A stretch of DNA of 64,000 bases from Litorihabitans aurantiacus (GTDB taxonomy: Bacteria > Actinomycetota > Actinomycetes > Actinomycetales > Beutenbergiaceae): positions 2,046,001 through 2,110,000 of the forward strand of contig NZ_BSUM01000001.1 of the NCBI RefSeq assembly GCF_030161595.1. Direction: 5' to 3'. This document shows positions 5,963-46,651 of this stretch, one piece after another. Numbering within the stretch: the stretch's first letter is position 1; every line of letters starts with the position of its first letter. The notes beneath the pieces were generated by a model that saw only the letters and a list, made by a program, of their open reading frames with translations, ran no database searches and had not been told where the DNA came from. A program made the translations under genes and the position numbers.

Positions 5963-6870
5963 GACTCCTCCTTCGCGGACGCGCCGCTGCGGCGGGTGAG
6001 GTGGACGAACAGGTCCTGCAGTCCGACGGCGCCGATCTCGAGGCCGGCGTCACGGGCGCGCCCGGCCAGCTCGTCCCCGGGCGAGGTCAGGACGGTGACC
6101 TGCGCCGTCGGGCCGAGGTCGCGACGGGCGAGGACCTCCCGGCCACCGAGGACCAGATCGACCTCGCCGGCGCGGCCGGTCAGGGTGAGGCCGCCGGCCC
6201 GGACGTCGTCGGCGCTGCCGCTGACGAGGGCCCGGCCGCGGTCGAGCACCACGACGTCCTCGAGGACCTGCTCGATCTCGGAGATGAGGTGGGTGGAGAC
6301 GACGATCGTGCGGGGGTGGGCGGCGTAGTCGGCGATGAGCGCGTCGTAGAACGTGGCGCGGTTCGGCGCGTCCATGCCGATCGAGGTCTCGTCGAAGAGC
6401 GTCAGCGGGGCACGCGAGGCGAGACCGATCACGGCGCCGACGGCCGAGCGCTGCCCGCGGGAGAGGTGCTCGACCTTCGTGCCGGCGTCGACGCCGAGCT
6501 CGGCCACGAGACCCGACGCGAGATCGGCGTCCCAGTGCTCGCGCGCGTCGGCGTACCAGGACAGCGTGTCGGCGACGGGCTCGCTGTCGAAGGTGTCGCC
6601 GCCCTCGCGCACGAGCTGGGTGTCCGCCGCGGTGACGGGGTTCTCGAAGGGGTCCTCGCCGTCGACCAGGAGCGTGCCCGACGTGGGGCGGTCGAACCCG
6701 GCGACGAGCTCGAGCAGCGTGGACTTCCCGGCGCCGTTGCGGCCGAGCAGACCCGTGATCGCGCCGGCGCGGATCTCGAGGTCGAGGCCGTCTAAGGCGG
6801 TGGCGTCGGTACCGAAGGCCTTGGTCAGACTGCGGGCGCTGACGCCGATCGGTGCGGGGCGGGTGGTCAT
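5959..6870 (-). CDS. ABC transporter ATP-binding protein (YtrB-like)
   Basis: 303 residues. Walker [20 protein letters not shown] (about 37-55), degenerate signature [16 protein letters not shown] (about 140), Walker [14 protein letters not shown], and switch His in [11 protein letters not shown]. The SRG signature and FDETSIGMD Walker B (Thr-Ser replacing Pro-x-x after DE) are typical of YtrB-type ATPases found with YtrA regulators rather than of importers. The C-terminal ~80 residues form a small extra domain. It overlaps the regulator upstream and the membrane protein downstream by four bases each, forming a three-gene operon. Confidence 0.88.
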
Positions 6871-7259
6871 CGCGCGTCCTTCCGGGTGGGGGTGGCGTCG
6901 TCGCCGAGGGCGGAGGCCTCGACGCGGGCGAGGACGACGGCGCGGGGGATGCCGAGCCGCGCGGCCTGGGCGAGGGCGGGGTCGAGCACGTCGGCGACGT
7001 ACGCCGCGCGCCCCGCGTCCCGGAGCAGGTCCCGGGCGCCCGGAGCGACGAACATGCCGAGTCCCCGGCGCTTGTAGAGCACCCCCTCGTCCACCAGGCC
7101 GGCGAAGGCCTTCGCGGCGGTGGCCGGGTTGATGCGGTACGTGGTGGCGAACTGGGTCGTGGACATGACCTGCTCCTCCTCGCCGAGGTCGCCGGAGAGC
7201 ACCTGCTCGCGCACGTGCCGGGCGATCTGCACGTAGAGCGGGTCGGATCCGTCGAACAT
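6867..7259 (-). CDS. GntR-family transcriptional regulator, YtrA subfamily
   Basis: 130 residues from the ATG at 7259. An in-frame ATG 18 bases upstream is less likely because it lies inside the palindromic operator, and a strong AGGAGG sits 4 nt before the chosen start. The N-terminal winged helix-turn-helix ([19 protein letters not shown] to about residue 75, including [21 protein letters not shown]) is followed by only ~50 residues. This short C-terminal region without a ligand domain defines the YtrA subfamily. It should repress its own operon (regulator, ATPase, membrane protein) through the dyad at 7273-7292. Confidence 0.9.
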
Positions 7260-7272
7260 CGTTCCTCCTGGG

Positions 7273-7292
7273 TTCATTACTTAACTAATGAA
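7273..7292. promoter_or_regulatory. YtrA-type operator (20-bp palindrome)
   Basis: TTCATTACTTAACTAATGAA pairs with its reverse complement at 18 of 20 positions (arms TTCATTA/TAATGAA around a TTAA core). It lies 14 bases before the chosen start of the regulator gene and is strikingly AT-rich for this genome. Position and symmetry fit an autoregulatory GntR/YtrA binding site. Confidence 0.8.
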
Positions 7293-7324
7293 CCACAGGT
7301 CCTCCGCGCCGGTCAACCGCGGGA

Positions 7325-7493
7325 TACGTGCGGGGGCTCGCGAGGTATTTGCGGGGAACTCGCGAGGTACTTGTAGGAACTCGCGAGGTACTTGTGGGGA
7401 ACCGCGAGGTACTTGTGGGACGTCTCGGGGTACCTGTGGGCGTTCGCGAGGCACTTCGGAACGTTCGCGAGGCACTTCGGGACGTTCGCGAGG
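7325..7493 (-). repeat. Left array: eight tandem 21-bp repeats
   Basis: Eight consecutive units begin at 7325, 7346, 7368, 7389, 7410, 7431, 7452 and 7473. All are 21 bp except one of 22 bp. The plus-strand consensus is TACTTGTGGGGACTCGCGAGG with a TCGCGA core in most units. The three units farthest right drift to CACTTCGGAACGTTCGCGAGG. There are no unique spacers, so it is not CRISPR. The array belongs to a 693-base stretch without a credible gene between the YtrA regulator and the cysteine desulfurase gene. The same unit recurs in opposite orientation at 7848-7981. Confidence 0.9.
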
Positions 7494-7574
7494 CACGGCG
7501 GCACCTCATCGCCCCGATCCGGCGGCACCATCTCGTGCGGCCTCGACGCGCAGGGCGATCTCTGTGCGCTCCTG

Positions 7575-7699
7575 TCCCGTCGTGAGGTGCGAGCGTCCCG
7601 TCGTGAGGTCCGAGCGCTCCGCCGGACCGATGGCAACGCCTGACCTGCGGCGATGCGCCCGCACGGCGCCCCTGTGCGACCCCGCACCTCACGACGGGA
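7575..7699. repeat. Inner 21-bp direct repeat pair with an inverted copy
   Basis: Two adjacent 21-bp units at 7575-7595 and 7596-7616 (TCCCGTCGTGAGGTGCGAGCG) differ at one base. A reverse-complement copy, CGCACCTCACGACGGGA, lies at 7683-7699. This second repeat family has the same 21-bp period as the flanking arrays and nests inside them, with its centre near 7643 against 7653-7662 for the outer pair. Nothing else recognisable is seen between 7494 and 7847. Confidence 0.8.
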
Positions 7700-7847
7700 C
7701 GCACACACCTCGCGTCGGTACGGTCGACGATCGGACGAACCGATCCGACCAGCCCCGCACTGACACGGACCCGTCGCACCGGATCACCGCGCGGAGCAGC
7801 AGGCGAACGACGGAATTCCGCGACCTCCTCACGGCGACCTCCACGTC

Positions 7848-7981
7848 ACTCGCGAGCTCCCCAAGTACCTCGCAGTCCCCCAGAGCACCCCGCGACTTCC
7901 CACAAGTACCTCGCGAGTCCCCCACAAGTACCTCGCGAGGCCCCACAAGTACCTCGCGAGTCCCCCACAAGAACCTCGCGG
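7848..7981 (+). repeat. Right array: seven 20-22-bp repeats, inverted relative to the left array
   Basis: Units begin at 7848, 7868, 7888, 7909, 7931, 7952 and 7974 (the last is partial). The plus-strand consensus is CCTCGCGAGTCCCCCACAAG followed by TA, the reverse complement of the unit at 7325-7493. The array ends five bases before the stop codon of the cysteine desulfurase gene, so it could shape the 3' end of that transcript. Confidence 0.9.
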
Positions 7982-7985
7982 ATGT

Positions 7986-9176
7986 TCAGCGTGTGAGGGA
8001 GCCGACCGCGTCGGTGAGGGCGGTCGCGGCCGTGGCCAGCTCGGCGGCCGTCGTCGAGCGCGACCACGAGAACCGCAGCGCGGTCTGCGCCGTCTCGCGG
8101 TCCAGGCCCATCGCCGTCAGCACGTGCGACGGCTCGTCCGACCCCGCGTGGCACGCCGAGCCGGACGAGCTCAGCACCCCGCGCTCCTCGAGCTCCAGCA
8201 GCACCGACTCCCCGCTCACACCCCCGAGCACGAACGACGCGTGCCCCGGCAGTCGCCGCGTCGGGTGCCCGGTCAGCCGCAGCCCTCGACCGGCCGGCAG
8301 GAGCGGCCCGACGCCGCCCCGCACCGCCGCGACGAACGCGTCACGCTCGCGCGCGACCGGATCCACGCCGTCGCCCGACGACGCCACCGCCGCCACTCGC
8401 TCGGCCTCGGCCAGCCCGAGCGCGACCGCGAACCCCACCGCGCCCGGGACGTTCTCCGTGCCCGACCGGCGCCCCCGCTCCTGCCCGCCACCGTGCACGA
8501 GCGGCTCGAGCCGCACCCCGCGGCGCACCCACAGCGCACCCGTCCCGGGCGGCGCACCGACCTTGTGCCCCGACAGCGTCAGCGCGTCGACCCCCAGCCC
8601 ACCGACCGCGAGCGGCAGCCAACCCGCCGCCTGCACCGCGTCGGTGTGCAGCGGCACGCCGGCCGCGCGCGTCAGCGCCGCCACCTCGGCCACGGGCTGC
8701 ACCGTGCCCACCTCGTTGTTCGCGAGCTGGAGCGAGACGAGCGCGACGCCGGCCCCGCCGTCGGCCAGCACCGCCGCAACCTCGCCCGGATCGACGAACC
8801 CGTCGCCGTCGACCACGAGCTCGACGACCTCGAACCCCAGGGTGGCGAGCCAGTGCGCGGAGGCCAGCACGGCGTCGTGCTCGACGGCGCTCACCACCAC
8901 CCGTGTGGCCCCGACGGCGGCGCGGCGCGCGAGCGCGAGCCCCTTGACCGCCGCGTTGTCCCCCTCGGTGCCGCCCGAGGTGAAGGTCACCTCCGCCGCA
9001 CGCGCCCCCAGCACCCCGGCCACCGCGCGACGCGCCGTGTCCAGCGCACCCGCGGCGTCGTGCCCGAGCGCGTGCACCGAGGACGGGTTGCCGAACCGGC
9101 CCGTCAGGTGCGGCCACATCGCCTCGAGCGCCTCGCGCCGCACGGGCGTGGTGGCCGCCGCGTCGAGGTAGACCAC
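7986..9176 (-). CDS. Cysteine desulfurase (NifS/IscS-like, class V aminotransferase fold)
   Basis: 396 residues from a GTG one base after the nadC stop. Fold-type I PLP enzyme: N-terminal VYLDAAATTPVRREAL, PLP-Lys in TLSGHKVGAPPGTGALWV (about residue 200), and a mobile catalytic-Cys loop SSGSACHAGSDEPSHVL (about 325-341), which carries SACHAG where NifS proteins have SAC. It releases sulphur from L-cysteine as an enzyme persulfide for Fe-S cluster assembly. As the last gene of the nad operon it probably serves the [4Fe-4S] cluster of quinolinate synthase NadA, as NifS does in the nad operon of Bacillus. It may also be a housekeeping desulfurase. Confidence 0.92.
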   Translation of the reverse strand: MVYLDAAATTPVRREALEAMWPHLTGRFGNPSSVHALGHDAAGALDTARRAVAGVLGARAAEVTFTSGGTEGDNAAVKGLALARRAAVGATRVVVSAVEHDAVLASAHWLATLGFEVVELVVDGDGFVDPGEVAAVLADGGAGVALVSLQLANNEVGTVQPVAEVAALTRAAGVPLHTDAVQAAGWLPLAVGGLGVDALTLSGHKVGAPPGTGALWVRRGVRLEPLVHGGGQERGRRSGTENVPGAVGFAVALGLAEAERVAAVASSGDGVDPVARERDAFVAAVRGGVGPLLPAGRGLRLTGHPTRRLPGHASFVLGGVSGESVLLELEERGVLSSSGSACHAGSDEPSHVLTAMGLDRETAQTALRFSWSRSTTAAELATAATALTDAVGSLTR

Positions 9177-14574: not shown

Positions 14575-14626
14575 ACGCGCGTCGCGCGTCGCCGCCTCGC
14601 CCCGCCGCAGCCATCCCCGACTCCTC

Positions 14627-14840
14627 GTGGGGAAGTTCCGGACGTCAGTAGCATCCGGAACTTCCCCACCAGCGACCCGAGCAGCTCCGCCCCCGCCCCA
14701 TCAGCCCTCGTGGGGAAGTTCCGCAGGCTCAGGCCTGCGAAACTTCCCCACCAGCGAACCCGTCCGTCGCCGCCGCCGGCGCACCAGCCCTCGTGGGGAA
14801 GATCCGGACGTCAGGAGCGTCCGGAACTTCCCCACGAGGG
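14627..14840. repeat. Three tandem long palindromes (REP-like)
   Basis: Hairpin 1: arms 14627-14642 and 14654-14669, perfect 16 bp (GTGGGGAAGTTCCGGA). Hairpin 2: arms 14710-14728 and 14733-14751, 18 of 19 paired. Hairpin 3: arms 14788-14810 and 14818-14840, 22 of 23 paired. All share an outer GTGGGGAAG/CTTCCCCAC and are spaced about 83 bp, with similar spacer text CACCAGCGA after copies 1 and 2 and CAGCCCTC before copies 2 and 3. They fill most of the 366-base gap between the SUFU gene (plus) and gamma-glutamyltransferase (minus), where convergent transcripts meet. Nothing else is seen in this gap. Confidence 0.88.
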
Positions 14841-46503: not shown

Positions 46504-46554
46504 GCGGCAGCCTCTCGGGCTCGCGGCACGGGCGCGGACGGCGGTCGTCACGCG

Positions 46555-46644
46555 TAGCTTCCTGCGCCGGCATGATCCGGATCAGGTTCGACGGTCGGAG
46601 TTGGAGAACTCCCTCTCAGCCCAGCTCACTGGACTCCCGTGCTC
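46555..46644 (-). ncRNA. TPP riboswitch
   Basis: Read on the minus strand it has every landmark of the THI element: the P1-side GCACGGGAGTCC, GGGCTGAGAGGGA, an internal hairpin AGTT/AACT, then GAACCTGATCCGGATCATGC and CGCAGGAAGC. It lies 52 bases before ykoF, so high thiamine pyrophosphate would shut down the thiamine-precursor importer. Confidence 0.96.
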
Positions 46645-46651
46645 GGTCCCG

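Follow-up and report, generated by a model that had tools for sequence, protein, structure and literature searches.

The intergenic region of about 0.7 kb that separates a GntR-like gene from a class-V aminotransferase gene in Litorihabitans aurantiacus contains one set of inverted 21-bp repeats placed inside another, and the question raised by this locus is what the inner set is and whether it belongs with the outer one. All coordinates below refer to the window, the whole 64,000-nt stretch of DNA that was analysed, unless a contig (C1) is named; G000 denotes the source genome (3.85 Mb), G001 and G002 (Serinibacter arcticus K3-2) are congeners, and G007 is Miniimonas arenae.

Anatomy of the inner element

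The unit of the inner element is TCCCGTCGTGAGGTGCGAGCG, found at 7575-7595 and here called family 1. A preliminary description had reported two such units in tandem with one mismatch and their inverse at 7683-7699, which sequence matching and shuffles confirm; it missed a degenerate fourth unit at 7700-7720, so that the element has two units on each side and spans 7575-7720. The features of the region are as follows.

6867-7277, minus strand: GntR-like gene, flanking, with a Pfam score just under the cut-off
7318-7496, plus strand: left outer array (the first family of the preliminary description), separate from the inner element
7575-7595, plus strand: left outer unit of the inner element (family 1), by sequence match
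7596-7616, plus strand: left inner unit, one mismatch to TCCCGTCGTGAGGTGCGAGCG
7617-7678: spacer, 62 bp, unrelated in sequence to the spacers of other copies
7638-7654, minus strand: 17-bp core ATCGCCGCAGGTCAGGC, one mismatch to RTCGYCGCAGGTCASNG
7679-7699, minus strand: right inner unit, with 17 exact bases at 7683-7699
7700-7720, minus strand: right outer unit, degenerate, TACCGACGCGAGGTGTGTGCG
7849-7980, minus strand: right outer array, separate from the inner element
7986-9176, minus strand: class-V aminotransferase (cysteine-desulfurase-like) gene, flanking

The conserved start of the GntR-like gene probably lies near 7259. The unit is matched three times in the window at up to three mismatches (0.05 expected); a 20/21 tandem at a lag of 21 appeared in none of 500 shuffles, and 1000 dinucleotide shuffles yielded no exact inverted repeat of 18 bp whose halves were separated by a gap of at least 20. 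A control for inverted repeats that carried no gap requirement was positive in 5 of 500 shuffles; we take these to be gapless palindromes, none of which is left once a gap is demanded.

The inner element and the outer arrays

The inner and outer repeats had been described as sharing nearly the same centre, which holds to within about 25 bp: the midpoint of the inner element is 7647.5, (7575+7720)/2, and that of the outer arrays is 7649, (7318+7980)/2, or 7672.5 if taken between the facing edges at 7496 and 7849. The reading of the whole region as a layered dyad stands as geometry, and such layering recurs at other loci. Elements of a second arm family lie centrally in arrays of a third at four loci (L110, L123, L208 and L209), where start-to-start steps are 35-38 bp on both sides although the joining sequences differ; a further family-2 element lies inside another 22-bp array on both sides (L115), and one lies beside a 22-bp array on the left side only (L117).

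The view of the region as one single dyad is not supported: at the gntR-csd site each congener retains arrays of the outer type, with diverged units, and has no inner element; the same gene pair encloses about 0.2 kb in G002 and about 0.3 kb in G001. Loss of the inner repeat from relatives that retain the outer arrays had been put forward as a mark of chance. The inner repeat is indeed lacking in both congeners, yet chance is not the explanation, because the inner family recurs at seven other loci of the source genome. By this comparison the outer arrays are the older feature of the gntR-csd site, and the inner element is a separate one sitting in their middle. The arrays occupy the same site in all three congeners, with units that differ between genomes and are homogeneous within each (L081; L082). 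The stretches surrounding the outer-type repeat within C1:42000-44700 (L031) and C1:3642000-3644000 (L050), near both contig ends, are alike in sequence; this is either a duplication or an assembly overlap.

Family 1 in the source genome

At up to two mismatches the family-1 unit has 33 matches in the 3.85-Mb genome and one in the reversed control; 28 of the 33 make up eight dyads, and the remaining five are lone matches with two mismatches that were left out of the dyad count. All eight dyads consist of two units, a spacer and two inverted units, with an arm-to-arm gap of 53 bp in two of them and 62-64 bp in six. The copy at L010 takes in the stop codon of the preceding gene within its first unit. 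The corresponding sites of three copies (L009, L011 and L012) have no room for an element in G002, while elements with other arms are present in G002 at the L010 site and in G001 at the L011 site. None of 58 other genomes contains the family-1 tandem pattern at up to three mismatches, and the exact tandem has no match in a wider genome contig set, in which near-identical records may be missing; G002 has one lone exact 15-mer (L051). The inner repeat is one free-standing copy of this dispersed element.

Core, spacers and arm spacing

When family-1 dyads are found through their arms, the core RTCGYCGCAGGTCASNG is present in four of the eight at up to two mismatches and in a fifth at three; the copies at L009, L010 (the gene-adjacent copy) and L014 have no recognisable core. 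Across the source genome the core occurs 139 times at up to two mismatches against 37 in the reversed control, and 38 times against 0 at up to one mismatch; the counts are 29 against 2 in G001 and 42 against 1 in G007, and G004 has none. A survey of core flanks took 42 of the 139 sites in G000 (the 30 best and 12 chosen by place), 20 of 29 in G001, 20 of 42 in G007 and 8 of 12 in G002. Arms in inverted orientation with a score of at least 15 were present at 26, 12, 14 and 1 of these, respectively; mispaired core flanks averaged about 9-10.5. The arms belong to mutually unrelated families in G000 (CTCGCTCACAGCGGCTG, CTCGCCCACGACGGCGA and CGTCGGGCGGTCTGAC), and further families surround the core in G001 (CCTCGCTCTCTGCGGACGG and AGCGGCACCCCGAACC) and in G007 (GCATTGACTGGTCG and ACGCCACAGCGACTC); one core is thus common to unrelated arm families in three species.

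Of 198 genomes belonging to the phylum, 17 contain the exact core, the source genome among them, with four reversed-control matches in total. Outside the family most exact cores were seen without evident arms, and one set is repeated coding sequence; eight exact cores in G204 were set aside as repeats of one sequence, read by eye as a transposase gene. Cores without arms were also seen by eye beside putative tRNA, RNase P RNA or integrase genes (L107, L108, L109, L194 and L195). The core is clade-specific, because Actinomyces spacers carry another, palindromic centre (L296, L297, L306 and L313).

Arm-to-arm gaps step by about 10 bp within families 1, 2, G001a and G007a. In family 2, 15 of 20 gaps are 65-66 bp, two are 76-77 and three are 86 (one unit missing); in G001a, seven of nine are 69-71 and two are 80-81; G007b has a single value, 72-73. 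Because most family-2 loci were retrieved by way of the core, its presence in them is partly by construction, and the two family-2 elements of L279, which were found through their gene, have it only at three to four mismatches.

The spacers themselves are close to unrelated. Mean identity is 0.346 in G000 (0.321 by chance), 0.368 in G001 (0.335) and 0.352 in G007 (0.319), and only 2 of 561 spacer pairs in G000 exceed 0.6; the exceptions are local duplicates and one pair of bracketing elements in G001. Such near-chance likeness is odd for recently copied elements, which weighs against the mechanism proposed below, and the copies are not homologous throughout their interior as those of a MITE would be. 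A broader proposal is that these are ordinary MITEs or REPINs moved by a known transposase, with the nuclease genes described below as bystanders; dispersed copies, inverted ends and presence or absence between congeners would suit it, but spacers that are not copies of one another, the lack of a target site duplication visible by eye in eight flanks, and the pairing of genes with elements leave it improbable.

The arms were also compared within loci. Within a locus, the left inner unit resembles the right one no more than shuffled pairs do, in any of five families (p 0.53-0.73). The two tandem units of one side resemble each other beyond shuffled pairs in family 1 (p 0.01), weakly so in G007b (p 0.07) and in none of the three remaining families. 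Each family-1 copy, if transcribed, is predicted to fold at -89 to -109 kcal/mol over 137-148 nt, and several copies come after stop codons, as an RNA hairpin such as a two-way terminator would; this explanation has a very slight chance of being right, given that left-right matching within loci is not beyond chance and that RNA needs no helical spacing steps. A scan of the window with Rfam 15 gave no RNA family at the inner element at gathering score, and at 16 other loci the element had no Rfam match except sub-threshold ones to a plant microRNA model. A cruciform is not favoured, because the left and right arms at one locus are no better matched than arms taken from separate loci, even though a very stable hairpin could form in each copy.

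Predicted nuclease genes paired with the elements

At L010 the family-1 element extends over the end of a gene whose product matches MTES_1575, DUF559 and AbiEi_4 below cut-off, and relatives of this protein are present in already-fetched loci of G002, G001 and G007. The DUF559 Pfam model is insensitive here (no gene in G000, one in G001), and a profile built from eight proteins (A2) was used in its place. In four whole genomes this profile gave 12 matches, nine of them with E<1e-100; the three weak matches (L280, L283 and L284; 26-29 bits) have no known arm family nearby and were kept outside the count of nine.

Dyads accompany all nine strong genes, on both sides at six of them. Six of these genes stem from loci that had been retrieved close to elements or at their flanks, and L278, L279 and L282 were found without recourse to elements. 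The two-sided cases include the G001 gene, whose bracketing elements share an identical 126-bp stretch, all three G007 genes, the new G000 gene L279 (C1:2784640), with a complete family-2 element on each side, and L282 (C1:2570072), flanked on reading by dyads of a further type. A lone dyad accompanies each metG-site ortholog, in G000 and in G002, and at L278 one side carries a single-unit dyad. Beside the methionyl-tRNA synthetase gene, gene and element adjoin in two Serinibacter species and in Miniimonas, in differing orientations (L276, L275 and L277). The arms of the gene are themselves dispersed for families 1, 2, G001a, G007a and G007b, a set that does not include L274, L278 and L282. 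It had been predicted beforehand that further G000 genes would carry family-2, -3, -4 or outer arms, which came true for one of the four families; the profile search of four whole genomes found no gene for families 3 and 4 or for the outer array, and no core was found for the outer arrays either.

Fold and conserved residues of the protein

The structure predicted for the S. arcticus ortholog (pLDDT 87.6, pTM 0.82, the last 20 residues low) falls into two halves. Residues 1-171 match the AbiEi antitoxin 6y8q (Z 9.1, 11% identity; Foldseek E 2.5e-4), and residues from about 175 to 272 match 3hrl (Z 12.0), the homing endonuclease I-Bth0305I (11.5), Vsr (9.6) and TnsA (7.6); whole-model TM-scores from Foldseek are low, as the halves match different entries. 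Sequence search finds only 3hrl (E 8.6e-6) and, weakly, I-Bth0305I (0.35). Six residues, E179, D206, E216, D218, H223 and D232, are invariant in 52 proteins, of which 44 match MTES_1575 and 46 match DUF559 at E<=0.01; by these matches the catalytic domain belongs with the MTES_1575/DUF559 nuclease domains. The protein is thus predicted to join an AbiEi-like DNA-binding module to a Vsr/homing-endonuclease-like domain. According to excerpts of PMC7319586, AbiEi-type proteins bind 23-bp inverted repeats separated by 3 or 13 bp, with AbiEi bending its own promoter; MTES_1575 is described in excerpts of PMC3710099 as a Vsr-type nuclease domain that accompanies winged helices within giant HEPN proteins.

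For AbiEi and Rv2827c, excerpts of PMC7319586 describe repression of the protein's own promoter that works through inverted 23-bp repeats, and the fusion proteins might autoregulate in the same way, the dyads being operators of a regulon and the nuclease domain otherwise employed. The retention of arms, core and spacing over unrelated spacers is what selection on binding sites would give. An operator network is nevertheless unlikely: complete elements occur downstream of genes too, six of the nine genes have two elements, several family-1 copies follow stop codons, both converging genes at L012 terminate, by reading, inside the arms (the G002 counterpart is a 12-bp gap between stop codons), and an asymmetric core has no role in a simple operator. 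A different use of the nuclease would be addictive anchoring, in which it is harmless while bound to its dyads and harmful once they are lost, so that the dyads are selected and immobile. The origin of the AbiEi fold in antitoxins and the retention of arms and phasing over unrelated spacers are compatible with anchoring of this kind, which by itself accounts neither for gene bracketing and the identical 126-bp stretch in G001 nor for sites that are empty in congeners; we consider it a poor prospect.

Distribution across Actinomycetota

Among named genomes, 204 relatives of the protein were detected, of which 80 were kept, all titled Actinomycetota. Inverted repeats scoring at least 16 are present in 42 of 157 gene-adjacent windows against 1 of 154 windows 1.65 kb away, the latter being mostly coding and so not matched for intergenic sequence. 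At a score of at least 15.5, a strong inverted repeat lies near the gene in 33 of the 80 loci and not in the other 47; it is on both sides at 11 loci, with an arm type that on reading is identical across sides, and these 11 include several related Actinomyces and two G007 genes already counted. Arm similarity tracks protein similarity over 36 loci from which duplicates of the four-genome genes had been dropped (Mantel r 0.82, p 0.0005), a correlation to which shared ancestry contributes and which does not by itself prove binding.

Proposed mechanism

The dispersed dyads are proposed to be protein-binding elements that are cut at the core by a cognate nuclease of AbiEi-Vsr type and copied, a reading to which we give a probability of roughly 0.55. 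Its firmest part is that the dyads are DNA partners of these proteins, which we hold to be very probable; that cutting of the core by the protein is what spreads the dyads is a more tentative proposal. The inner element would then most likely be a remote target of the family-1 protein. The AbiEi half would read the family-specific 21-bp arms and the nuclease half would cut the clade-specific core: the 21-bp units would serve as binding sites for a cognate protein whose gene lies about 1.6 Mb away, at C1:476948-477916, protomers would bind the units on one helix face and bend the DNA, and the nuclease domains brought to the core in this way would nick or cut it. Cutting followed by copying repair could explain both the bracketing of a gene by the element that belongs to it and the scatter of gene-less copies through the genome.

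Relation to known systems

By analogy, the system would work most like the RAYT-REPIN pairs, in which a RAYT enzyme is linked to dispersed REPINs (excerpts of PMC3116915); in both, inverted repeats that lack a gene are dispersed over the genome and fall into several sequence groups, and each group is linked to a cognate single-gene enzyme. The enzyme, however, differs. RAYT is a tyrosine (Y1/HUH) transposase, whereas the element-adjacent enzyme here matches AbiEi_4, MTES_1575 and DUF559 and has a predicted AbiEi plus Vsr-like fold; moreover, stable hairpins are predicted, yet the arms are tandem 21-bp units without left-right coupling, and a separate core is common to unrelated arms. Likeness to AbiEi and Rv2827c of the type IV AbiE systems lies in the modelled fold of the N-terminal half (Z 9.1) and in the presumed recognition of inverted repeats of about 21-23 bp (excerpts of PMC7319586), while the nuclease fusion and the many sites per genome set the present proteins apart. 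The AbiEii (DUF1814) toxin is also absent among the ten neighbouring ORFs at seven of the nine genes (L273 and L278 being the other two), one ORF having no Pfam match.

I-Bth0305I (an EDxHD homing endonuclease) and Vsr resemble the modelled nuclease half in fold (Z 11.5 and 9.6) and in conserved acidic and histidine residues, and differ in that the present proteins have an AbiEi-type DNA-binding module, dyad bracketing and no intron. In lambda-type attP, arm-type sites flank an asymmetric core on both sides, as the dyad arms do here; no recombinase domain was found in the present system, which has many sites per genome. The MTES_1575/DUF559 domains of PMC3710099 are those of giant HEPN proteins, and the excerpted text does not mention dispersed repeats.

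No article tying AbiEi-Vsr-type proteins to dispersed repeats was found by title or displayed abstract among open-licence PMC texts. The system may, with some doubt, represent a new element class of Actinomycetota, in which a single AbiEi-Vsr-type fusion nuclease is bracketed by, and acts on, phased arm-core-arm dyads. Under this equally tentative definition, each genome would hold several independent pairs of gene and arms, arms and protein would co-evolve, and gene-less dyads would be spread and maintained. A family of AbiEi_4 plus MTES_1575/DUF559-type proteins, whose function has so far been undescribed, would thereby be linked to a DNA target that is legible in the flanks of the gene itself, and the specificity would therefore be predictable and testable. 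If true, the system would be a counterpart of RAYT-REPIN with an unrelated enzyme, and would provide a large natural set of proteins and targets for studying change in DNA recognition.

Two other features of the window were recorded. Three near-identical short hairpins (GTGGGGAAGTTCC ... GGAACTTCCCCAC) lie in tandem at 14623-14835, about 83 bp apart, and are unlike the arm families described here; a TPP riboswitch on the minus strand at 46542-46650 is the only match in the window above the Rfam gathering score.
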